From Arthrobacter sp. AQ5-05 (lineage in GTDB: Bacteria; Actinomycetota; Actinomycetes; Actinomycetales; Micrococcaceae), in assembly GCF_003287975.1 (NCBI RefSeq), contig NZ_QMKQ01000021.1:1-64000 (forward strand): DNA of 64,000 bases, in the 5' to 3' direction. Shown piece after piece: positions 1,513-13,848 of the stretch; within the stretch, counting starts at the first letter, position 1, and the number at the start of each line of letters is the position of its first letter. Under the pieces are notes generated by a model. It searched no databases and was not told where the DNA came from. It saw only the letters and a program-made list of their open reading frames with translations. The position numbers and the translations under genes were made by a program.

Positions 1513-2307
1513 TTAGTGCTGTTCGGCGAAGACCGGGTCTGCCGGAGCTTCCACCTCGGGCTGGGGATCCGAGAGGGTCTTCGGGACGGTGTCCTTGAAC
1601 AGCGGGAGGCGGTTGAGGTAATCCACCACCGAGTCCGTGGACTCCACGTCACCGAACTTGTTGTCGATGTCGTAGAGGTTCCACTGCACGACGCCCGGCA
1701 CGCGGTCCCCGATGGTCTCGCGGGGGATGATCGGGCGGAAGCCCTTGGCGATCGCGTCCTCGACGGTGTGGCGCACGCACCCGGCCGCGGTCGCACCGGT
1801 CACAATCAGGGTGTCGATGCGGTTGGAGGTCAGGAAGAGCTCGAGGTTCGTCCCCGGGAATGCCGAGGCACGGTTCTTCTCGAGCACGACCTCGCCCTCT
1901 GCCGGCGCGATGCGGTCATCAATCTGCGCCCAGTAGGAATCCGCCGGAAGGGTTTCCGTGGGAATCTTCGAGTACCACAGGCCCATGTCGTTCGTGCCGG
2001 AGGTCGCATCGCGGTTGCGGTACACGTTGGTGGTGTAGAAGACCGGGACGCCCTTGGCGCGCGCGGCCTCGTTGATCCGCTGCACGTTCGGGATGATCGT
2101 GTCCATGCCCGGGCAGCTGAACGGGTGGCCCGGACGGGTCCAGGCGTTTGCGAGGTCGATGTGGATGACGGCGGGGCGGTTGCCGTAGCCGATCCGGCGC
2201 TTGAATCCGCGCTCGTTGTAGATGCTGTTTCCGGCTTCGAACGCTTCTTCCAGCACTGCTGCCAGACGGGCTTCGATGTCGTTGAACTTCCCTGTCGCTT
2301 CAGTCAT
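1513..2307 (-). CDS. N-carbamoylsarcosine amidohydrolase (EC 3.5.1.59), copy 1
   Basis: This cytoplasmic cysteine hydrolase of the isochorismatase fold splits N-carbamoylsarcosine into sarcosine, CO2 and ammonia, the last step of the N-methylhydantoin route from creatinine. From the start MTEATGK the protein has 264 residues and places Asp51, Lys144 and Cys177 (in TAAGC) at the catalytic positions known from the Arthrobacter enzyme. That start is preferred over an upstream ATG 18 bases earlier because a GGAGAG ribosome site lies 5 bases before it. The gene is identical to the copy at 5529-6323. Its promoter carries the locus operator at 2336-2352. No creatinine deiminase or sarcosine oxidase is in view. 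Confidence 0.94.
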   Translation of the reverse strand: MTEATGKFNDIEARLAAVLEEAFEAGNSIYNERGFKRRIGYGNRPAVIHIDLANAWTRPGHPFSCPGMDTIIPNVQRINEAARAKGVPVFYTTNVYRNRDATSGTNDMGLWYSKIPTETLPADSYWAQIDDRIAPAEGEVVLEKNRASAFPGTNLELFLTSNRIDTLIVTGATAAGCVRHTVEDAIAKGFRPIIPRETIGDRVPGVVQWNLYDIDNKFGDVESTDSVVDYLNRLPLFKDTVPKTLSDPQPEVEAPADPVFAEQH

Positions 2308-2335: not shown

Positions 2336-2372
2336 GTTGCTATCGAAGCAACAATGTTGCTCTGGTAAGTAC
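2336..2372. promoter_or_regulatory. Tandem IclR-type operator of amidohydrolase copy 1
   Basis: Positions 2336-2352 read GTTGCT-ATCGA-AGCAAC, a perfect palindrome. A degenerate second site with the same left half GTTGCT begins exactly 20 bp later (2356-2372). The same motif recurs before the other transcription units of the locus and before the IclR gene at 13030, which is the likely binding protein. Confidence 0.8.
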
Positions 2373-2555
2373 CATAGCGCATGGTTCGACCCAGCGCCAG
2401 AGCTTTGCCGAATCCGCATCTCCATCGGAGCAATCGCTCGGCAGGGCGTGCGGATTGGTGGGTGCGAGTATCGACAACCCGTCAAGGATCGGGTCCGCCC
2501 GCTCGTATTGAGCCTCCTCGCGCGGCTGGATGAATCAGGACAAAAGCCTTGACCT

Positions 2556-2592
2556 GTTGCTGTTAGAGCAGATAAGTTGTTGCCTGACCAAC
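2556..2592. promoter_or_regulatory. Tandem operator upstream of the MHS transporter
   Basis: Two sites lie 20 bp apart: GTTGCT-GTTAG-AGCAGA at 2556-2572 and GTTGTT-GCCTG-ACCAAC at 2576-2592. Each matches GTTGCT-N5-AGCAAC in 10 of 12 arm positions. They lie about 100 bp before the transporter start at 2694. The remainder of the 2308-2693 gap shows no gene. Confidence 0.7.
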
Positions 2593-2693
2593 AGTGGCCT
2601 GGATCACATACGAAATACTCGGCCCGCAGTATTCTGGGCTGGAAGTGAACCACCACGCGGTCTTCGGCGCCATCCCCCCTGAACGGAGACAAC

Positions 2694-4073
2694 ATGGAAC
2701 GCAACCTTGCAGACAGTTCACTGGAGAAGGTGAGCCCGGAGCGCCTACGAAAGGTGGTTCGCGCCTCTTTTGCGGGGACCGTAGTGGAGTGGTTCGACTT
2801 TGCCATCTACGGCTACATGGCAACTCATATTGCTGCCACCTTCTTCTCGTCCACGGATCCGGTCACAGGCCTGCTGGAGACGTTCGCCGTATTCGCTGTG
2901 GCATTCTGCCTGCGGCCATTGGGTGGAATCTTCTTCGGACGCCTGGGAGATCGCCTTGGACGCAAAAAGATCCTGGTACTGACTGTGCTGCTCATGTCCG
3001 GATCCACGGCCGCAATCGGTCTCATCCCAAGCCACGAAACGATCGGCATGTGGGCCGCCGTCCTACTGGTGGTTGCCCGGTGTTTGCAGGGGTTTTCCGC
3101 CGGCGGCGAATACGCAGGCGCCACGATCTACGTCGTCGAACACAGCCCCGACAGACACAGGGCCCGCTACTCGTCCGCCATGTCGGCGGCCACCTTTTCC
3201 TCATTCGCTCTCGCGGCCGGGCTCGGCGCGCTGCTCAGCTTTATCCTGCCGGCTGCGGCCATGGGCGATTGGGGCTGGCGCATCCTCTTCCTGTTGTCGG
3301 TGCCGATGGGCCTGGTTGCCTTCTACATTCGCGCCAAACTCCACGAGTCTCCCGAGTTCCAAGCGATGATCGACGATTCCGCCTCACGTCCCGCCCCGTC
3401 ACTGGAGACCGTCTTCCGCACCCAGTGGCGCGCGATGCTGCGCCTAGGCGGGTTTGTGATGCTCACGGCGCTCTCCTTCTACATCTACTCCACATATATG
3501 TCGACCTTCCTGATCAAGGTGGTCGGGCTGCCGCAGCACCTCGCGCTGTTCTCCAGTCTTATCTCGCTGACCATGGCGACGGCGTTCGCCCCGGTCATGG
3601 GCCGCGTCTCGGATCGCATAGGGCGCCGCCCCACCATGCAGGCCGCCGCCGGCCTCCTGGCCATCCTCACCATTCCGGCGTACATGATCGCCGAACAAGG
3701 AACGTTTGCAACCGCCGTTGCCAGCCAACTGCTCATAGGAATCGGCGCAGTAACCGCTAATGTGGTGACCTCGGTCCTGATGTCGGAAATGTTCTCAACC
3801 GACGTGCGCTTCGCAGCATCGGGCACCTGCTACAACATCACCTACGCCGTGTTCGGTGGCACCGCACCCTTCCTGGCAACGTGGCTTGTCGCCGGAACGG
3901 GATACTCGCTCTCCCCCGCCATCTACGTCGCAGCAATCGCCGTCGTATCATTCCTCGTCGCCACCTTCCTCATACCCGAGACCGCCGGACGACCTCTTCG
4001 CCGCTACCACGACGACCCCGTGGCCGCCGAGCCCGCGCGCGCGATGACCCCGCAAATGGCGCCCAAGGTTTGA
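2694..4073 (+). CDS. MHS-family MFS transporter, probable N-methylhydantoin/creatinine uptake
   Basis: A 459-residue, twelve-helix proton symporter of the metabolite:H+ symporter (MHS) family. The N-terminal GTVVEWFDFAIYGYMA signature is at about residues 28-43, and the loop 2-3 motif GRLGDRLGRKK is at about 82-92. A GGAG site precedes the ATG. It sits between the two identical amidohydrolase genes, on the opposite strand, and its promoter carries the same tandem operators, so co-induction with the hydantoin pathway is likely. The substrate is inferred from context only. The last 25 residues form a polar, proline-rich tail. Confidence 0.88.
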   Translation: MERNLADSSLEKVSPERLRKVVRASFAGTVVEWFDFAIYGYMATHIAATFFSSTDPVTGLLETFAVFAVAFCLRPLGGIFFGRLGDRLGRKKILVLTVLLMSGSTAAIGLIPSHETIGMWAAVLLVVARCLQGFSAGGEYAGATIYVVEHSPDRHRARYSSAMSAATFSSFALAAGLGALLSFILPAAAMGDWGWRILFLLSVPMGLVAFYIRAKLHESPEFQAMIDDSASRPAPSLETVFRTQWRAMLRLGGFVMLTALSFYIYSTYMSTFLIKVVGLPQHLALFSSLISLTMATAFAPVMGRVSDRIGRRPTMQAAAGLLAILTIPAYMIAEQGTFATAVASQLLIGIGAVTANVVTSVLMSEMFSTDVRFAASGTCYNITYAVFGGTAPFLATWLVAGTGYSLSPAIYVAAIAVVSFLVATFLIPETAGRPLRRYHDDPVAAEPARAMTPQMAPKV

Positions 4074-4271
4074 TGACCTGCCCGCTGCTCGAACCCGGCG
4101 GGGTTCAAACGTCTCGCATCAGCGGAAATTTCACGGTTATTGACTGCACCGACGCTGAAGTCTCCCGCCGCCGCAGGTATCGGATCCAGACTGGATCTTC
4201 AGTCAGCCAGCAGGACGTAGCGCAGGCCTCTTGTTCTCATTGACGTGATCTGATGTGCAATATCTTGGGCA

Positions 4272-4301
4272 AGCGGACCATCTCTGCAGAGATGGTCCGC
4301 T
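4272..4301. terminator. 30-bp perfect palindrome downstream of the MHS gene
   Basis: The two halves AGCGGACCATCTCTG and CAGAGATGGTCCGCT are exact reverse complements with no spacer. It lies 200 bp after the transporter stop and could act as a bidirectional terminator. No T-run follows, so a role as protein-binding site or mobile-element end is also possible. Confidence 0.5.
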
Positions 4302-5059
4302 CCTTCGGACGGGTCCGCTCGAAAGAAAATGCGCAGTGGCGCACATCCAGCTTCAAGGCTTGGGTGGAACCATCGCATCATGCAGTCACGGCATTCGGGG
4401 AGCTGTGGCTAGCGACGCCTCGACCGCCCTGGTCACGACACAGGATAGTAACGTCGCGGTCCACGCACGCGACGTATCAAGACCTGGTCACTAAGGATCT
4501 GGAGCACTTCCTTACTTTCGATCCGCGGATGCTGTCCGACCGAGGCCTCAGACCACGTCCTCTCCAAACACTTTTTGGTCGGGGAGCCAACCTCTCTTCT
4601 TCCTCCGTGACGTCACTACTGGAGGAGCCAATCGACGTTGTCGTCGCCGCAGGAACCAACATCATATTCATTGAGAACAAGAAAATCGGTCTGGATGACT
4701 TGTTCGATGAAGACGACCCGTTTGACGCCGAAAACTGCCGCTAGCTCCCCTGCCGTTCAATTAAGCGGTCCCGCCCGACGTCAACCCACGTCTGCAGTCC
4801 GGAATACGTGCCGCCCAGGACGCCAACCATGACCGGGCGGCACGCCTTGTCTTAAATTGTGAGACGAACCCCGGAACCCCTTTTAGAGCGCCGGGACCCC
4901 TGTTACGCATGTGAATGTTCAAGCCCATGTGCCTCACAGGAGTTTCTACGTGCCAACTTTCCATCTTCCCGCCGACCTTGGCCAATCCGGCGGGCACCCC
5001 CGGATCCCCGCCGTACCCCCCTGCCCCCACAGCCGCACGGTCGGAGCTTGGGACCCGGC
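4302..5059. other. No supported gene; one doubtful ORF
   Basis: The only long frame (4253-4744, plus strand, 163 codons) starts upstream of the 30-bp palindrome and reads through it. It has no family resemblance and no clear ribosome site, although its last 85 residues (acidic tail EDDPFDAEN) are less chance-like. I do not call it. The stretch probably consists of decayed DNA leading into the IS4 remnant. Confidence 0.45.
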
Positions 5060-5440
5060 GCACCTGGGCGAGCCGACCGGGCAACTGCCCGCCGACCTGG
5101 TGGGCCGGACGCTGGACGCCATGGGGAAGCGTGAACGCCGCGCCCGAACCCTACCCCCGGGTGGTCTGTACTTCACTTCGCGCTTGTCTTGGCCACGGTC
5201 ACCGGATCGGCACTCACCCAGGCCCGGCGTCGGATCGGGGTCCAGCCCCCCCGCACTGGCCCTTCGAGCTGCTCCGCGGCCCGGCCTCGACCGCCATCTG
5301 CCAGGGGTGCTGGTTCGGGTCCCTGCGCATCTACGCGATCGACGGCACCATCCTGACCCTGCCGGACACCGAGCAGGTCAAGACGAAGTACGGCGTGGCG
5401 TGCGGGGCGCCTGCTTCGGATGCCCGGGACTTCCCTGTTT
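5060..5440 (+). pseudogene. IS4-type transposase remnant, frameshifted
   Basis: Pieces of a transposase N-terminal region appear in order but in different frames. GEPTGQLPADLVGRTLDAMG (5070-5130) is followed in another frame by HFALVLATVTGSALTQAR, then by a third piece with YAIDGTILTLPDTEQVKTKY (about 5331-5390), where the DGT Asp is the first catalytic residue typical of IS4. The rest of the transposase is missing. The sequence stops at a hairpin just before the second copy of the 948-bp repeat, so this dead element marks an old rearrangement point. Confidence 0.65.
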
Positions 5441-5451
5441 TCCCAGATACG

Positions 5452-5492
5452 ACAACAGTCCGGCACCCTCTGGAGGGGTGCCGGACTGTTGT
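5452..5492. terminator. 17-bp perfect stem-loop
   Basis: Arms 5452-5468 and 5476-5492 are perfectly complementary (ACAACAGTCCGGCACCC) with a 7-base loop. It lies 37 bp downstream of the leftward amidohydrolase copy 2 and is a good candidate for its terminator, although the T-run is poor. Confidence 0.6.
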
Positions 5493-5528
5493 TGCCATGG
5501 CCTGGGGCCGCTGGCCAGTGGGACGAGG

Positions 5529-6323
5529 TTAGTGCTGTTCGGCGAAGACCGGGTCTGCCGGAGCTTCCACCTCGGGCTGGGGATCCGAGAGGGTCTTCGG
5601 GACGGTGTCCTTGAACAGCGGGAGGCGGTTGAGGTAATCCACCACCGAGTCCGTGGACTCCACGTCACCGAACTTGTTGTCGATGTCGTAGAGGTTCCAC
5701 TGCACGACGCCCGGCACGCGGTCCCCGATGGTCTCGCGGGGGATGATCGGGCGGAAGCCCTTGGCGATCGCGTCCTCGACGGTGTGGCGCACGCACCCGG
5801 CCGCGGTCGCACCGGTCACAATCAGGGTGTCGATGCGGTTGGAGGTCAGGAAGAGCTCGAGGTTCGTCCCCGGGAATGCCGAGGCACGGTTCTTCTCGAG
5901 CACGACCTCGCCCTCTGCCGGCGCGATGCGGTCATCAATCTGCGCCCAGTAGGAATCCGCCGGAAGGGTTTCCGTGGGAATCTTCGAGTACCACAGGCCC
6001 ATGTCGTTCGTGCCGGAGGTCGCATCGCGGTTGCGGTACACGTTGGTGGTGTAGAAGACCGGGACGCCCTTGGCGCGCGCGGCCTCGTTGATCCGCTGCA
6101 CGTTCGGGATGATCGTGTCCATGCCCGGGCAGCTGAACGGGTGGCCCGGACGGGTCCAGGCGTTTGCGAGGTCGATGTGGATGACGGCGGGGCGGTTGCC
6201 GTAGCCGATCCGGCGCTTGAATCCGCGCTCGTTGTAGATGCTGTTTCCGGCTTCGAACGCTTCTTCCAGCACTGCTGCCAGACGGGCTTCGATGTCGTTG
6301 AACTTCCCTGTCGCTTCAGTCAT
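5529..6323 (-). CDS. N-carbamoylsarcosine amidohydrolase (EC 3.5.1.59), copy 2
   Basis: The 264-residue protein is identical to the one encoded at 1513-2307, including Asp51, Lys144 and Cys177 and the GGAGAG ribosome site. This copy is divergent from the fused hydantoinase gene at 7188, whose product it would consume. Each copy keeps its own operator-bearing promoter, so two active copies probably raise the dose of the final hydrolytic step. The downstream flank is an IS4 remnant rather than the IS982 element that follows copy 1. Confidence 0.94.
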   Translation of the reverse strand: MTEATGKFNDIEARLAAVLEEAFEAGNSIYNERGFKRRIGYGNRPAVIHIDLANAWTRPGHPFSCPGMDTIIPNVQRINEAARAKGVPVFYTTNVYRNRDATSGTNDMGLWYSKIPTETLPADSYWAQIDDRIAPAEGEVVLEKNRASAFPGTNLELFLTSNRIDTLIVTGATAAGCVRHTVEDAIAKGFRPIIPRETIGDRVPGVVQWNLYDIDNKFGDVESTDSVVDYLNRLPLFKDTVPKTLSDPQPEVEAPADPVFAEQH

Positions 6324-6351
6324 TTTTCTCTCCACTCTCATTCACTGGGGT

Positions 6352-6368
6352 GTTGCTATCGAAGCAAC
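6352..6368. promoter_or_regulatory. IclR-type operator of amidohydrolase copy 2
   Basis: GTTGCT-ATCGA-AGCAAC, identical to the site at 2336-2352 and again followed by a GTTGCT half-site 20 bp on. It lies 29 bp upstream of the start codon, where a bound repressor would block transcription. Confidence 0.8.
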
Positions 6369-6464
6369 GATGTTGCTCTGGTAAGTACCATAGCGCATGG
6401 CTAGGCCCAGCGCCAGAGCTTTGCCGAATCCGGATCTCCATCGGGCCGGCTGCCCGGCAGGGCG

Positions 6465-6981
6465 CGAACATCCGCGGGTGCGCCACTCCGGAAGCCCGGC
6501 AAGGAGCCGACTCCTGCCCCCAGACCCAGCAGGCCGGGCAGCAGGATTGGAGCCGAGCCCCGGGTGAATGCCGAGGCCCCCTCCGTGACGGAGGCGCACA
6601 TGGCCGCGACCTCGCACCGGCGATCGGGGCGTCGATCCGCCCAGAGGCTTAGTCGATGGATGGGTGCCAGGGGAGGTGGCGGATGGTGATCGCATTGCAG
6701 CGGCCACCGGCCTGAAGCTCACCCGCCCCGGTCCCGCCCTCGATCTTCCTTCAACTTTCCTGCCCAGACCGGGATGAAGGCGGCGGGGAACGTCACGAGG
6801 CTGAAGGGGACGCCCATCCACCGATCGGGAACGGCAGCCCCTCCATGCGGCGTCCAGCGTGGAGGCCGCGGGCCCTCCGGGCTTGACCACCGCATGGACC
6901 AGGAGGCGATGGGGTCGGCGACTGCGGCAGGCCACTGCGCACCCAAAAAAATATCGAATGGATCCCGCTTAGGCATTGCGT
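6465..6981. other. Intergenic stretch without recognisable gene
   Basis: Between the divergent amidohydrolase and hydantoinase promoters there is over 500 bp of GC-rich DNA. The minus-strand frames here (for example 6719-6976) have no family resemblance. The region may be eroded coding DNA, but nothing can be named. Confidence 0.5.
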
Positions 6982-7018
6982 GTTGCTCAGAGGGGCATTA
7001 GATTGCTACCTAAGCAAC
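6982..7018. promoter_or_regulatory. Tandem operator of the hydantoinase operon
   Basis: ATTGCT-ACCTA-AGCAAC at 7002-7018 matches the locus palindrome in 11 of 12 arm positions. A GTTGCT half-site begins exactly 20 bp upstream (6982-6987). The start codon follows 170 bp later, leaving a long leader. Confidence 0.75.
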
Positions 7019-7187
7019 GTTGCGTGATTCGAATCACACGAATTGTCGGAGAAGGTCCCAGCACTGTGGGCCCGCCTTCCCCTCCGGGGCCCGACCCGGG
7101 CCCCGTTCCCTGCATCCCCTGCCCCTCCCCCAGGCCCTTCCTCTTTCCTCAACAGACCTGGGTATCCCCCTTTCGAAAGGACCCATC

Positions 7188-10100
7188 ATGAAGCGCATCG
7201 GAGTCGACGTCGGCGGCACATTCACCGACCTTTACTATTCAGACGATGAACGCCGCATCGCCGTCGTCGAGAAGGTTCCCTCCACCCCACACGACCCGTC
7301 CGAGGCCGTGGTCAATGGCATCAAGATGCTCTGTGAGAAGGCCGGTGTGCCCCTGTCGGAGATCGACCAGCTGGTGCACGGGACCACGGTGGCCACGAAC
7401 ACCGCGCTGACGCATACCGGGGCGGAGGTCGGGATGATCACCACCGAGGGATTCCGGGACATCCTGCACATTGCCCGCCACAAGAAGCCGCACAATTTCT
7501 CCCTCCAGCAGGATTTGCCGTGGCAGACCAAGCCGCTGATCAAGCGCCGCCACCGGCTCACCGTGAAGGAACGCATCACCGCCCCCCACGGCGAGGTCCT
7601 GGTTCCCCTGGACGAGGACGAGGTCCGCACCCGGGTGCGCGAACTCAAGGCCGCAGGTGTCCAGGCCATCGCCGTGTGCCTGCTGCACTCCTACCTGAAT
7701 CCCGCCCACGAGCGGCGCATCGGGCAGATCGTCAACGAGGAGTTCCCCGAGGCCTACCTGTCCCTGTCCAGCGAGATCGTCCCCCTGTACCGGGAGTACG
7801 AGCGGTTCTCCACCACTGCCCTGAATGCCTATGTCGGGCCGCGGGTCTCGCGTTACCTGCACCGTCTGCAGGAACAGGCCGAAGGCTTGGGCTACCGGCG
7901 CGAGATCCTGCTGATGCAGTCCTCCGGCGGCATGGTGCCCATCCGCGAGGCCGCCAAGCGACCGGTCACCCTGATGATGTCCGGTCCGGTGGGGGGCCTG
8001 ATCGGCGGCATGTGGGCCGCCAAGCAGTCCGGCTTCGAGAACGTCGTCACCCTGGACATCGGGGGCACCTCGGCGGACATCGGCGTCGCCTACCAGGGCG
8101 AGCTGCGCATGCGCCACCTGCTGGACACCAAGATCGGGGACCACCAGGCCATGGTTCCCATGGTGGACATCGACACCATTGGCGCCGGCGGCGGTTCCAT
8201 CGCCTATGTCGATGCCGGCGGCGTCTTCCGCGTCGGCCCGCAGTCGGCCGGCGCCGTCCCGGGACCGGTCTGCTACGGACGCGGGGGCACGGAGCCAACG
8301 TCGACCGACGCCCAGGTGCTGCTGGGCCGGATGCGTCCGGACCGCATGCTGGCCGGCTCGGGCCTGGACATGGACCTCGACGGCGCCCGCACGGCCATGG
8401 AGAAACTGGCCGACAAGCTCGGCATGTCCGTCGAGGAGGCCGCCCTGGGCGCGCTGCAGATCCAGAAATTCGGCATGACCCAGGCCATCGAGCAGAACTC
8501 GGTGCGCCGTGGCTACGACCCGCGCGACTTCACCCTGGTCGCGGCCGGCGGCGCCGGCGCTCTGTTCGCCTGCGAGATCGCCGCCGAACTGGAGATCCCG
8601 CATGTGTTGGTCCCGGCCCACCCGGGCATCATCGCCGGCATCGGGCTGCTGGCCACCGACGAGCAGTACGAGTTCGTTGCCACCAACCGGTTCAGGTTCG
8701 CCGACGCCGATCCGGCGGCCATCCAGGCATCCTTCGAACAACTTGAACGCGACGCCAATGCGCAGCTGGACGCCGAGGAAGTCCCCGCCGAACGGCGCAG
8801 GATCGACTGGCTGGCCGACGCCCGCTATGAGGGCCAGGGCTACGAGATTCGCTTCGATGTCCCCGAAGGTCCGGTGACCACCGCCTGGCTGGACCAGGCC
8901 GAGGCCGCCTTCCACGACGCCCACTTCGAGGAGTACGGCCACCGCTTCAAGGACGGCACCGTGGAGGTCATCAACATCCGCGTGGAGGCCCGGGCCGTGA
9001 TGGACGAGCTGCCCACGCCGGAGGCGACGAAGTCCGGCTCCCTGGAACAGGCCCTGGTGGAGACCCGTCCGGTGACCTTCCAGCAGGACGGCAAGCCGGT
9101 CACCCTGGACACCGGCTTCTATGACCGGGACAAGATGGGCGTGGGAACCACCTTTGCCGGCCCGGCAGTCATCGAGCAGTACGACTCCACCACGGTCATT
9201 CCCCCGGGCTTCACCGGGACGGTCGACGAGGCCGGCAACCTGGTCATCGCCTGCCCGGCGGCCACCCAGAGCGTCGAGCAGCTGGCAACCCCGATCCTGA
9301 TGCGCGTGATCGGCGGCGCACTGAACTCCGCGGCCAAGGAGATGGCCTCGGTGCTCTTCCGCATGGCCTACTCCTCGATCATCCGCGAGTCCGAGGACCT
9401 GGGTGCCGGGCTGTTCGACAAGGACGGCAACGTGCTGGCCGAATCCGACTCCACCCCGATGTTCATGGGTTCGATGCCCAAGATCGTCAAGGGCGTCATC
9501 TCGGTCCTGGGCGATGACATCCACGAGGGGGATGTCATCCTGCACAACGATCCGTACCTGGGCGCCACGCACTCCCCGGACGTGGCGATCATCGAACCGA
9601 TCTTCCACGACGGGCAACTCGTCGGTTTCGCCGGCGCCTCCGGGCAGCTCATCGACAACGGCGGTGCGTTCTCCGGGCTGATGGTGGACATCCAGGACAT
9701 CCAGTCCGAGGGCACCATCTTCCGGGCGGTGAAGGTCTATGAGAAGGGTGTCCGCCAGGCGTCCTTGATCCAGCACATCCTCAACAACACCCGGACACCC
9801 ACCTCCAACGAGGGCGACTTCCAGGCGATGATCGCCGCCTGCGACCTCGCCAAGTCCCGCTACCTTGCGCTGGTGGAACGCTATGGCCTGGACTCGGTCC
9901 GCGACGCCGGCCAGTTCTGGATCGACTACTCGGAGAGGATGCTGCGCCAGGAGATCGCCAAGGTCCCGGACGGAGTGTACGAGACGGAGGTCGGCTACCT
10001 CGACGACGACGGGCGCAACTACGGCAAGAAACTGCCCATCGTGGTCAAGGTCATCGTCGAGGGCGACGAGATCACCTACGACCTGACCGGTTCCTCCGAA

Positions 10101-11054
10101 CAGGTGCCCACCGCCTACAACTGCGCGTTCGAGGGCACCACGGTCTCGGCGTTCACGTTCATCACCCGCATGATGTTCCTGGACGAGGTCGCCTTCCCGG
10201 TGTTCGTCCCGCAGAACGAGGGCATGCTCAAGCCGCTGAAGGTGATCGCCCCGGAAGGCACCATCTTCAACCCGACCTACCCGGCGGCCACCTTCAGCCG
10301 GTTCTCCCAGGTCCAGCGGGCCGTGGACCTGGCCCTGCGGGCACTGGCTCCGGTGATGCCCGAACGGGTCACCGCCGGGAACTCGGCGCACATCCACTTC
10401 ATGTCCTACTCCGGCTGGGACCAGAAGCAGGGCGAGTACTGGGTCTACCTCGAGGTCAACGAAGGCTCCTACGGCGGGCGCCAGCACTCGGACGGGCCCG
10501 ACTCGGTCGACAACCTCATCGCCAACACCCGCAACAACCCGATCGAGGAACTCGAGTGGCGCTTCCCGATGCGCACCGACCGCTACGAGCTGCGCGACGA
10601 TCCGGCAGCCGCCGGTGAGTTCCGCGGTGGCATCGGCATCGTGCGGGAGAACACCTTCCTGACCGACACCGCGGTCACCTGCGAGGGTGAGCGCCACGAC
10701 TCGGATGTTCCCTGGGGCGCCTTTGGCGGCCATGACGGCCTGAACGCGTCCTTGGTGAAGAATCCCGGCCGGGACGGGGAGGCGTACTGGCCTTCCAAGG
10801 TCACCGGCTGGCAATTGACGGCCGGCGATTCCCTCCAGATCACTGTGCCCAGCGGCGGCGGATTCGGCGATCCGCTCAAGCGCGACCCGATGAAGGTACT
10901 CGAGGACGTGCTGGATGGCTTCACCACCGCCGAGGCCGCCACCCGCGACTACGGCGTGGTTCTCAAGGAGGTCAACGACCAGCTCACGGTCGACCTGGTC
11001 GCCACCGCAGAACTCCGGAAGAACGTGGCATCCGAGCTCAGTCCCATCAACTGA
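7188..11054 (+). CDS. ATP-dependent N-methylhydantoin amidohydrolase, HyuA-HyuB fusion (EC 3.5.2.14 likely)
   Basis: This 1288-residue protein joins both halves of the hydantoinase/oxoprolinase family. The A half (about 1-690) opens with the ATP-binding GVDVGGTFTDLYY at residues 4-16 and carries a second ASKHA-type motif, LDIGGTSADIG, near residue 290. The B half starts near residue 694 (TPILMRVIGGALNSAAKEM). The length equals that of fused 5-oxoprolinases. The neighbouring N-carbamoylsarcosine amidohydrolases point to N-methylhydantoin as substrate, opened with ATP to N-carbamoylsarcosine. Oxoprolinase is the alternative by sequence alone. The ATG at 7188 follows AAAGGA; an upstream in-frame extension lacks such a site. 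It probably forms an operon with the MFS gene at 11206. Confidence 0.88.
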   Translation: MKRIGVDVGGTFTDLYYSDDERRIAVVEKVPSTPHDPSEAVVNGIKMLCEKAGVPLSEIDQLVHGTTVATNTALTHTGAEVGMITTEGFRDILHIARHKKPHNFSLQQDLPWQTKPLIKRRHRLTVKERITAPHGEVLVPLDEDEVRTRVRELKAAGVQAIAVCLLHSYLNPAHERRIGQIVNEEFPEAYLSLSSEIVPLYREYERFSTTALNAYVGPRVSRYLHRLQEQAEGLGYRREILLMQSSGGMVPIREAAKRPVTLMMSGPVGGLIGGMWAAKQSGFENVVTLDIGGTSADIGVAYQGELRMRHLLDTKIGDHQAMVPMVDIDTIGAGGGSIAYVDAGGVFRVGPQSAGAVPGPVCYGRGGTEPTSTDAQVLLGRMRPDRMLAGSGLDMDLDGARTAMEKLADKLGMSVEEAALGALQIQKFGMTQAIEQNSVRRGYDPRDFTLVAAGGAGALFACEIAAELEIPHVLVPAHPGIIAGIGLLATDEQYEFVATNRFRFADADPAAIQASFEQLERDANAQLDAEEVPAERRRIDWLADARYEGQGYEIRFDVPEGPVTTAWLDQAEAAFHDAHFEEYGHRFKDGTVEVINIRVEARAVMDELPTPEATKSGSLEQALVETRPVTFQQDGKPVTLDTGFYDRDKMGVGTTFAGPAVIEQYDSTTVIPPGFTGTVDEAGNLVIACPAATQSVEQLATPILMRVIGGALNSAAKEMASVLFRMAYSSIIRESEDLGAGLFDKDGNVLAESDSTPMFMGSMPKIVKGVISVLGDDIHEGDVILHNDPYLGATHSPDVAIIEPIFHDGQLVGFAGASGQLIDNGGAFSGLMVDIQDIQSEGTIFRAVKVYEKGVRQASLIQHILNNTRTPTSNEGDFQAMIAACDLAKSRYLALVERYGLDSVRDAGQFWIDYSERMLRQEIAKVPDGVYETEVGYLDDDGRNYGKKLPIVVKVIVEGDEITYDLTGSSEQVPTAYNCAFEGTTVSAFTFITRMMFLDEVAFPVFVPQNEGMLKPLKVIAPEGTIFNPTYPAATFSRFSQVQRAVDLALRALAPVMPERVTAGNSAHIHFMSYSGWDQKQGEYWVYLEVNEGSYGGRQHSDGPDSVDNLIANTRNNPIEELEWRFPMRTDRYELRDDPAAAGEFRGGIGIVRENTFLTDTAVTCEGERHDSDVPWGAFGGHDGLNASLVKNPGRDGEAYWPSKVTGWQLTAGDSLQITVPSGGGFGDPLKRDPMKVLEDVLDGFTTAEAATRDYGVVLKEVNDQLTVDLVATAELRKNVASELSPIN

Positions 11055-11077
11055 TCCCGAAGCCGTAGCGGAAAAAG

Positions 11078-11124
11078 GGGGCGGATTGGAGGCCAGCGTC
11101 ATTGCCTGGTCGCTAATCCGCCCC
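11078..11124. terminator. Stem-loop between hydantoinase and MFS genes
   Basis: Arms GGGGCGGATT (11078-11087) and AATCCGCCCC (11115-11124) are perfect, followed by TTCGTT. It may partially terminate or process the hydantoinase message before the downstream transporter. Confidence 0.55.
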
Positions 11125-11205
11125 TTCGTTCCTGATCCACCACCCTGTCTCTGTCATTTTCCCGCCCTGCCTCTGTCATTTCCCCACCGTCCTCAAGGAA
11201 TCGTC

Positions 11206-12570
11206 ATGTCTACTGTGCAACCAACTCAATTTGTCGAATCGGATGTCCGGCCCAAGGACGTCCGGTTGGCCACCTGGATCTGCTTCTTCGCCTGGACCTT
11301 CGCCGTCTACGACTTCGTCCTCTTCGGGAACCTGTTGCCCCAGCTCGCCGAGGACCTCGGATGGACAGGGGCCCACTCGACCGAAGTCAACACCTGGGTC
11401 ACGGCAGGCACGGCCATCGTGGCCTTCGCGATCGGCCCGATCGTGGACCGGATCGGCCGGCGCAAGGGCATCCTGATCGCCGTGGCCGGAGCCGCCGTGG
11501 CCTCGCTGCTGACCGCCATGGTCGGCTGGGTCATCGGCCTCGCCGCCGGACTGGGGCTCGTCTTCCTGGTCCTGGTGCGGTCCCTGGCCGGTCTCGGCTA
11601 CGCCGAACAGGCCATCAACGCGGCCTATCTCAACGAGATGTTCGCCCACAACAGCGACCCGGCCAAGGCCAAGCGCCGAGGGCTGGTCTATTCGCTGGTC
11701 CAGTCCGGCTGGCCGGTCGGCTCCGTGCTCGCCGCCGGGTCCGTGTACCTGCTGTTCCCCATCGGCGGTTGGCAGCTCTGCTTCATCGTCGCCGCCATCC
11801 CCGCCGTCTTCATCCTCTACGCCGGACGCTGGCTCAAGGAAAGCCCACAGTTCTCCCATCGTCACCAAATCGACCGGATGATCAAGGCCGGTCAACTGGA
11901 GGTGGCACAGTTGCTCGGACAGAAGCACGGCATCGATGTCTCTGAGAAGGCCAGTCCCCTGGCCTCCGTTTTCCGCGGGGAATCGCTGCGCTCCACCGTG
12001 ACGATCGGTGGCGCCTTCCTCCTGAACTGGCTCGGTGTCCTGTCCTTCGCGATCCTTGGCACCTCGCTGTTGACGGCACCCGACGGCAAGGGCATCGAGT
12101 TCAGCAACGCGCTACTGGTCCTGATCATCTCCAATGCCACGGCCTTCGCCGGTTACCTTTTCCATGGCTGGCTGGGTGACCGAATTGGACGTCGCAACGC
12201 CATTGGCATCGGTTGGATCCTGTGCGCCGGGTCCTTCTTCACCATGCTCCAAGCCCCGAACGGGAACTTCCCGCTCATCATCGCACTCTATAGCGCCGGG
12301 CTGTTCTTCCTCATCGGCCCCTTCTCGGCCCTGATGTTCTTCACCGGTGAGAGTTTCCCTGTCCATACCCGGGCCACCGGCAGCTCGCTGATCAACGCCG
12401 CGGGCCAGGTCGGTGCGATCATCGGCGGCCTGCTGATCACCGCTTCCCTGGCCGCGGGCAGCGGCTGGATCAATGCCACGTTGTGGTGGGGTGTCATCCC
12501 CATCCTGGCCTCCGGGATCCTGATCTTCGCTGCCCGCAACGTCGATCCCCGCACCGTCCGCACCGACTGA
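11206..12570 (+). CDS. MFS transporter of the hydantoin locus
   Basis: A 454-residue twelve-helix major facilitator. The first helix contains WICFFAWTFAVYDFVLFG, and the loop 2-3 motif DRIGRRKG lies near residue 85. A second such motif, GDRIGRRNAIG, lies at about 324-334. An AAGGA site precedes the ATG. It lies 151 bp behind the hydantoinase gene on the same strand, without an obvious operator of its own, and is followed by a strong terminator. It is therefore probably co-transcribed and moves a pathway substrate or product. It differs from the MHS transporter at 2694, giving the locus two unrelated carriers. Confidence 0.85.
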   Translation: MSTVQPTQFVESDVRPKDVRLATWICFFAWTFAVYDFVLFGNLLPQLAEDLGWTGAHSTEVNTWVTAGTAIVAFAIGPIVDRIGRRKGILIAVAGAAVASLLTAMVGWVIGLAAGLGLVFLVLVRSLAGLGYAEQAINAAYLNEMFAHNSDPAKAKRRGLVYSLVQSGWPVGSVLAAGSVYLLFPIGGWQLCFIVAAIPAVFILYAGRWLKESPQFSHRHQIDRMIKAGQLEVAQLLGQKHGIDVSEKASPLASVFRGESLRSTVTIGGAFLLNWLGVLSFAILGTSLLTAPDGKGIEFSNALLVLIISNATAFAGYLFHGWLGDRIGRRNAIGIGWILCAGSFFTMLQAPNGNFPLIIALYSAGLFFLIGPFSALMFFTGESFPVHTRATGSSLINAAGQVGAIIGGLLITASLAAGSGWINATLWWGVIPILASGILIFAARNVDPRTVRTD

Positions 12571-12598
12571 CGCGCCTGAACTCCGAACCACGGACACC

Positions 12599-12649
12599 GT
12601 CCGCCCGGCGGCAACTCCCTGTTTCCCAGGGAGTTGCCGCCGGGCGGAC
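12599..12649 (+). terminator. 23-bp perfect-stem terminator
   Basis: Arms 12599-12621 and 12627-12649 are perfectly complementary with a 5-base loop, 28 bp after the MFS stop. It marks the end of the hydantoinase operon. The rest of the gap up to the IclR gene holds only its operator. Confidence 0.85.
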
Positions 12650-12858
12650 ATTAATGAGTCCGGGCCACTCCAGCATCCTCTGGACGTAGCGTTGGAACAG
12701 CCGAACCACGCAGCGGAGCATCCGATGCCTGCGTGCCCGGGTTGCTTCCGTGCTCCCTGGAAGCGCGAACCGCAAGGGTGCCGCTGCCACGTGCGCTCGT
12801 GCTGGGCCTGTCCGGGAGTGGGCCGGATGAACGGCGGGCCGTTGCCCGCCCCCCGAAA

Positions 12859-12895
12859 GGTGCTTCATAAGACATATAGTTGCTGGTAAAGCAAC
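12859..12895. promoter_or_regulatory. Tandem operator of the IclR gene (autoregulation)
   Basis: GTTGCT-GGTAA-AGCAAC at 12879-12895 is a perfect copy of the locus palindrome. A weaker site, GGTGCT-TCATA-AGACAT, begins exactly 20 bp upstream (12859-12875). The presence before the regulator gene itself supports autoregulation. Confidence 0.78.
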
Positions 12896-13029: not shown

Positions 13030-13848
13030 GTGGTGGGAAAGACGCAACAGGTTTCGGAGAACACCCAAGGTGTTGCCGCGTCGCTGCTCAATGGCCTGGC
13101 GGTATTGGAGGCGTTTTCCATCGAGAACCCCGTCCTGGGGGTCACCGAGATCGCAAACCGGGTCAATCTGCACAAGAGCACCGTCTCCCGGATCCTGAAC
13201 GGGCTGGCCGAGACCGGATACATCCAGCGGGACGAGCAAACGGGGCGATTCCGGCTCGGCCTGGGCCTCATCATGCTCTCCGGGCCGCTCTTGGCCGACC
13301 TGGACGTCCGGCGTGCGGCCCTGCCCTATCTTGAGGGCCTGACATCCGCCACCCGGGAAACCGCTGCCATCTCGGTGTGGAACGGGAAGGAGGCGATCGT
13401 GGTGGAACAGGTGGCCAGTCCCCACCAGGTTAAGCACACCGCCGCAATCGGCACCCGCTATTCCCGGTACGAAAGCTCATCGGTGCGCGTTCTGCTGGCC
13501 GAACTTCCGCCGGCCGAGGTACAGCGCCTCCTGGGGGACGGAACCATGACGATTGAGGCCGACAGCACGGCACCGCACCCGGTGGCCGCGCATCTGGAGC
13601 AAGTGCGGGAGACCGGCTACGCGGTCAATGACGGGTACACCACGGACGAGGAATACGGGGTCTCCGCCCCGGTGCGTGACTACCGGGGGATCGTCGTGGG
13701 GTGCATCACCGTCAGCGCGCCACGCTCGCGCGTGTACAAGCTGAACAGCTTCGAGGCGCTGGCCGAGGCCGTCACAGGCGCTGCCGGGCAGGTCTCGGAG
13801 CGGCTCGGGGCCGCACCGGCCACCAAGGCCGCGGGCGTTCAGGCGTAA
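13030..13848 (+). CDS. IclR-family regulator of the N-methylhydantoin locus
   Basis: A 272-residue regulator with an N-terminal winged helix (about residues 15-75, recognition helix around NLHKSTVSRILNGLAE) and a C-terminal effector domain (about 90-255). Start is GTG at 13030 (a GTG at 13033 is equally possible) after GAAGAAGG. Its promoter and those of the two amidohydrolases, the MHS carrier and the hydantoinase share GTTGCT-N5-AGCAAC, so it probably controls the whole locus in response to a pathway intermediate such as N-methylhydantoin. The effector is inferred. Confidence 0.88.
   Translation: MVGKTQQVSENTQGVAASLLNGLAVLEAFSIENPVLGVTEIANRVNLHKSTVSRILNGLAETGYIQRDEQTGRFRLGLGLIMLSGPLLADLDVRRAALPYLEGLTSATRETAAISVWNGKEAIVVEQVASPHQVKHTAAIGTRYSRYESSSVRVLLAELPPAEVQRLLGDGTMTIEADSTAPHPVAAHLEQVRETGYAVNDGYTTDEEYGVSAPVRDYRGIVVGCITVSAPRSRVYKLNSFEALAEAVTGAAGQVSERLGAAPATKAAGVQA

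Follow-up and report, generated by a model that had tools for sequence, protein, structure and literature searches.

An IclR-family regulator and its predicted paired operators within the core promoters of an N-methylhydantoin locus in Arthrobacter sp. AQ5-05

Among 181 IclR orthologous groups, the survey by Suvorova and Gelfand (2021, PMC8222616) gives tandem palindromes with centres 18–22 bp apart (mainly 19–21 bp), read as tetramer binding, for 94, and three-box operators for 32. Correlations in that survey predict that, in the IclR helix-turn-helix, His27 is accompanied by G at motif positions 10/22 and Lys28 by G at positions 7/25; in the numbering of its Table 5, Pro46 and Arg47 of TtgV are residues 27 and 28. 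In Corynebacterium glutamicum, the creatine/creatinine genes are under the control of AmtR, a nitrogen regulator of the TetR family (PMC8864220). Here, we describe an IclR-family gene at 13030..13848 (plus strand) and the operator pairs around it in a 64,000-nucleotide stretch of Arthrobacter sp. AQ5-05 (the window: positions 1 to 64,000 of contig NZ_QMKQ01000021.1), which carries genes for N-methylhydantoin use. Very likely, the product of this gene, referred to as the 13030 protein, represses N-methylhydantoin catabolism locally, and its own gene as well, through paired operators in the core promoter. The locus shares the hydantoinase, the N-carbamoylsarcosine amidohydrolase and, in a second cluster, the creatininase with the C. 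glutamicum AmtR system, but two dedicated IclR paralogues appear to take the place of the TetR-family regulator.

The operator motif is GTTGCT-N5-AGCAAC, scored as matches to its 12 fixed bases. A motif search of the window placed the main sites before the two amidohydrolase copies (operator 1, 2336..2352 and 6352..6368, both 12/12, the latter a duplicate of the former), the MHS-type carrier gene (operator 1, 2556..2572, 10/12), the hydantoinase gene (operator 2, 7002..7018, 11/12) and the IclR gene itself (operator 2, 12879..12895, 12/12). Each has a partner at exactly +20 or −20 bp: operator 2 at 2356..2372 (9/12), 6372..6388 (9/12) and 2576..2592 (10/12), and a degenerate operator 1 at 6982..6998 (8/12) and 12859..12875 (8/12). 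All five sites and their exact 20-bp partners, as located in a preliminary description of this DNA, were recovered at the same coordinates. In the pair at 2336–2372 (profile match E 2.0e-4), the third box is strong and the fourth, AAGTAC, is weak, and this box pattern of the second operator is conserved in orthologues. The 4,647,352-base genome contains perfect matches only at 2336, 6352 and 12879, against about 0.3 expected by arithmetic on 12 fixed bases. With up to 3 mismatches allowed, 40 matches are found in the window, as compared to 20.6 ± 4.5 in shuffled sequence, and none of the shuffles reached 40. Single sites with 1–2 mismatches are, however, widespread by chance, with 170 sites at up to 2 mismatches in the whole genome; the pairing, rather than the single site, discriminates real operators from chance. 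The DNA at 1501–2448 is 98.8% identical to that at 5517–6464, and this duplication includes both 2336/2356 and 6352/6372. Thus, the five-promoter regulon first described does have five places with sites, but only four of these promoters are independent, the two amidohydrolase copies counting as one.

The arrangement closely resembles the published tandem operators, as each pair comprises two 17-bp GTT-11-AAC palindromes set 20 bp apart at all five promoters, within the 18–22-bp range of PMC8222616. The 20-bp phasing, which had seemed striking, is real and conserved but is a common trait of the family according to the same source. Compared with the consensus GTTYCRYW3RYGRAAC given there for the GTT-11-AAC motif subgroup, the outer GTT...AAC and the 17-bp length agree, whereas position 4 has G where the consensus has C/T, and T or A stands at position 6; a G at position 4 of the half-site is what the survey predicts for His27. 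The amidohydrolase promoters, like the creatinase promoters and indeed the whole sister regulon described below, have three strong alternating half-sites and are similar in this respect to the three-box operators of PcaU, PobR and HmgR. In contrast, boxes 1, 2 and 4 or boxes 1, 3 and 4 are retained before the hydantoinase and MHS genes, and the overlap with the core promoter suggests repression. The dimer might instead occupy AGCAAC-N3-GTTGCT, the unit of the group-2 plan, but only at the three-box promoters; as a general unit it was rejected, since box 2 or box 3 is degenerate at the hydantoinase promoters.

The IclR orthologue was sought in 149 relatives at a threshold of 51% identity or more. 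Thirteen other genomes carry one, and in all of the 12 loci examined it adjoins amidohydrolase, hydantoinase or MHS genes. In all 28 promoters from 12 genomes, a partner site scoring 7/12 or better lies 20 bp away, while every other offset between 6 and 60 is found at no more than 4 of the 28. We built a sequence-only profile of the 37-bp operator pair, R1, from the window sites and their orthologues. In the whole genome, where prefiltered candidates only were scored (150/269), R1 gave seven matches up to E = 10, every one of them at one of the five promoters in the window. The crowd of unrelated hits that would have spoken against the regulon did not appear, and neither did the further targets that had been named as possible support: creatinine deiminase and sarcosine oxidase had no R1 match outside the cluster in this genome at E up to 10, and a wider regulon is rejected. 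Across the relatives, R1 matched in 14 of the 149 genomes, exactly those owning the IclR orthologue, and in none of the other 135, an agreement (14/14) that is partly built in, as R1 was trained on sites beside the regulator, most of them from the 14 genomes. Independent of this training are the absence in the 135 genomes, the match in the untrained genome G086, and the matches unlinked to the IclR gene; these last (G086:C94, G035:C7 and G062:C1) each lie directly before hydantoinase or amidohydrolase genes. A separate collection of 78 loci, mostly outside the training set, contains 85 pairs at a spacing of 20; over the range from 14 to 33, the next commonest spacing is 23, with 11 pairs, and no other exceeds 4. 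In one relative (G001, L061:12632-13493), a decayed second hydantoinase gene is preceded by a degenerate operator pair. A search of plasmids for the cluster returned nothing of note.

The operators are embedded in the core promoter in two ways. Drawn with the gene on the right, the hydantoinase and MHS promoters run TTGnnn, operator 1 (17 bp), TAnRTT; this −10 element takes its first three bases from the 3-bp gap between the operators and its last three from the beginning of operator 2. A TTG in the −35 position combined with a TA in the gap occurs in 23 of the 29 hydantoinase and 8 of the 9 MHS promoters, against a mean of at most 0.02 at random places. Before the hydantoinase gene, the probable −35 TTGCGT (6976..6981, plus strand), where TTG occurs in 24/29 orthologous promoters, directly abuts operator 1, which fills the 17-bp spacer, and the probable −10 TAGATT (6999..7004, plus strand) overlaps the first three bases of operator 2. 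Before the MHS gene, operator 1 lies between the probable −35 TTGACC (2549..2554, plus strand; TTG conserved at this place) and, 18 bp on, the probable −10 TAAGTT (2573..2578, plus strand), which overlaps the first bases of operator 2. At most amidohydrolase promoters, the −10 (TATGGT, TATAGT or TACAGT) immediately precedes box 4, and the start region is covered by both operators. One of these three hexamers occupies this place in most class-B orthologues, and in the window the probable −10 is TATGGT for copy 1 (2371..2376, minus strand) and copy 2 (6387..6392, minus strand). The IclR gene has a probable −10 TATAGT (12875..12880, plus strand) that lies between the operators and overlaps them, and the same element precedes the orthologue in G059.

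Both promoter plans fit repression by occlusion. We propose that the 13030 protein would bind as two dimers, forming a tetramer on one face of the DNA with palindrome centres 20 bp apart. Operator 1 would then occupy the −35/−10 spacer of the hydantoinase and MHS promoters, with operator 2 extending from inside the −10 over the start, and both operators would lie just downstream of the −10 at the amidohydrolase promoters. Because the operators lie inside the core promoter, RNA polymerase would have no access while the regulator is bound; a metabolite of the pathway, most likely N-methylhydantoin or N-carbamoylsarcosine, would cause its release. The genes thus freed would provide uptake, conversion by N-methylhydantoinase and then by N-carbamoylsarcosine amidohydrolase, and finally sarcosine.

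Several points weigh against this reading. The IclR promoter is without a clear −35, that of the amidohydrolase is weak (CTGGCG), and the −35 and −10 boxes in general are consensus readings. The prefiltering and the training of R1, mentioned above, belong here too, as weak distant sites could escape such a scan. Furthermore, the nearest NCBIfam subfamily of the 13030 protein, TIGR02431 (PcaR/PcaU/PobR), whose members include activators, matches at 130 bits, far under its cut-off of 284.75. The same IclR bound to the same pairs might accordingly be an activator, as PcaU and PobR are, or a dual regulator, with a pathway compound needed to recruit RNA polymerase; the weak amidohydrolase −35 and the three-box operators described for PcaU, PobR and HmgR in PMC8222616 point in this direction. 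However, an activator could hardly work from the −35/−10 spacer and the start, as at most hydantoinase and MHS promoters, or from just downstream of the −10, as at the amidohydrolase genes, and the promoter of the IclR gene is covered as well. We consider activation unlikely, and repression remains the preferred mechanism.

That the 13030 protein is the operator binder has a high probability, judging from its sequence, given the fit to the recognition code and the co-occurrence of the protein with the sites. Its recognition helix (LHKSTVSR) has His27-Lys28, and the predicted G positions, 10/22 and 7/25, are the Gs of its GTTGC half-site. Among the 18 aligned IclR recognition helices of the genome, His-Lys is found in only three: the 13030 protein, its sister, and a protein at locus L076, in whose 2.3-kb locus no GTT-N11-AAC site was found. 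The TtgV–operator complex (PDB 2xro, as described in PMC8222616) places an IclR-family protein on a paired operator through the same recognition-helix positions as in the 13030 protein; TtgV is an efflux regulator with Pro46-Arg47 in place of His-Lys, however, and the similarity is only about 54 bits. The placement of a pair before the IclR gene cannot separate a regulator from a target, and a different protein, either another IclR or a member of another family encoded elsewhere, might bind the pairs with the IclR gene as merely one more target; GntR and PucR regulators are present in the sister cluster. Such a binder is very improbable, as the sites are confined to genomes with this IclR clade, two IclR clades track two site types over many genera, the His-Lys code fits the 13030 protein, and a GntR or PucR gene is not seen in most hydantoin loci. 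The original suggestion of the neighbouring IclR binding as two dimers side by side is thus strengthened by the restriction of the sites to genomes with its orthologue and by unlinked matches preceding the same enzyme genes. Finally, a reading of the repeated words as chance, or as a side effect of the 1-kb duplication, with no role in regulation, could draw on the 98.8% duplicate behind two of the five promoters and on the commonness of single sites with 2 mismatches, but is refuted by cross-genome conservation, in that the exact 20-bp spacing is kept in dozens of orthologous promoters across genera and unlinked targets were correctly predicted.

The N-carbamoylsarcosine amidohydrolase (264 aa; Pfam Isochorismatase) is encoded by copy 1 at 1513..2307 and copy 2 at 5529..6323, both on the minus strand and identical in protein sequence. 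It is near-identical to the enzyme of PDB 1NBA, with 264/264 residues aligned (574 bits). Its start is likely the ATG at 2307 (and 6323) and not at 2325, as GGAGAG lies just upstream and the 1NBA alignment begins at that residue. The N-methylhydantoinase, a fused HyuA-HyuB protein of 1288 aa (7188..11054, plus strand; Pfam Hydantoinase_A/B), is likewise near-identical to PDB 7hk5 over residues 1–1287 (2765 bits). With R1 confined to the five promoters and both enzymes near-identical to solved proteins, the description of a complete local regulon for N-methylhydantoin use was borne out. The putative substrate carrier is an MHS-type metabolite:H+ symporter (2694..4073, plus strand; Pfam Sugar_tr/MFS_1), its best NCBIfam match, TIGR00883, being under its cut-off. 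A second MFS carrier, recognised by domain search (11206..12570, plus strand), lies downstream of the hydantoinase gene, is co-located in most orthologous loci and is probably co-transcribed with it. The 13030 protein (272 aa; recognition helix LHKSTVSRIL) was assigned from an orthologue tree and from its IclR-family domains, HTH_IclR (62.6 bits) and IclR_C (100.7 bits), both over their gathering scores. It falls below the cut-offs of the NCBIfam equivalogs AllR (78.9/406 bits), KdgR (100.4/275), BhcR (114.9/350) and IclR (71/380). An IS982-family transposase at 497–1402 adjoins amidohydrolase copy 1 and is a possible agent of the duplication.

A sister regulon is found in the creatine branch. 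On contig 10, three GTTGCA-N5-TGCAAC pairs with a partner half-site at 20 bp (L069:2957, 7255 and 11313) precede two MHS-carrier/creatinase operons, whose creatinases are 99% alike, and the creatininase/BCCT genes. This cluster encodes an IclR paralogue (C10:16802-17638) that is 46% identical to the 13030 protein, and we infer that it controls the creatininase/creatinase branch. Of 59 relatives, 20 have the sister operator pattern; the reversed control never showed it. In the tree, the two IclR groups are sister clades (support 93/89 and 100/99; joint 99/99), and they differ cleanly behind the recognition helix (SRIL-NG vs SRIL-AT) and elsewhere. Their half-sites are one base apart (GTTGCT vs GTTGCA), and in the genome neither the hydantoin nor the sister profile matches the sites of the other. 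This single base per half-site may insulate two rival creatinine routes. In loci L059, L169 and L186, the two sister IclR genes are adjacent (G047) or near each other (Citricoccus), an arrangement that hints at tandem duplication as their origin. Both branches here also contain recent duplicates, of the amidohydrolase (98.8% DNA) and of the creatinase (99% protein; L069:213-1469 and 4533-5789), and each duplicated enzyme copy carries its own operator or carrier.

A further element accompanies the operators. A dyad similar to CRP sites, TGTGA-N6-TCACA (8–10 of 10 bases), lies on the gene side of the operator pair, 26–32 bp away from its centre, in 24 of the 29 hydantoinase and 8 of the 9 MHS promoters, with null means of 0.12 and 0.02, respectively. 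In the window, it reads CGTGA-N6-TCACA at the hydantoinase promoter (7023..7038; 9/10) and AGTGG-N6-TCACA at the MHS promoter (2593..2608; 8/10), where its place is conserved in orthologues. In nearly all of the 32 sister promoters, the dyad lies between the −35 (TTGAC) and the −10. A plain activator site is unlikely, given these positions downstream of the presumed start or between −35 and −10. The dyad is possibly a second repressive input.

Creatinine, creatine and hydantoin regulons are not named, and promoter elements inside an operator pair are not described, in the portion of PMC8222616 available. A search of the open-access literature found no paper that names an IclR regulator for creatinase or N-methylhydantoin genes. 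Tandem phasing was already known; both regulons, and the embedding of the operators in the promoter, seem to be new. On a broader view, whose chances we regard as evenly balanced, two sister IclR repressors would divide the two creatinine routes between them, in Micrococcaceae and in other actinobacteria, through a single base of the half-site. In the hydantoin regulon, the operator would be locked to the promoter geometry (a 17-bp operator as the 17-bp spacer, and the 3-bp gap together with the first bases of the following half-site as the −10). The CRP-like dyad would add a second input, of carbon status, at a fixed place.

The locus would thus provide a regulator, an operator and an apparently complete target list for a pathway with a use in creatinine diagnostics, whose regulation in Corynebacterium is quite different. 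With operators one base apart per half-site, the sister pair offers a natural experiment on how IclR paralogues in one cell avoid cross-talk, and the clean differences in and behind the recognition helix, such as NG or AT after SRIL, open their specificity to direct test. Should pathway metabolites be the inducers, the two regulators would serve as ready-made sensors of creatinine or N-methylhydantoin.

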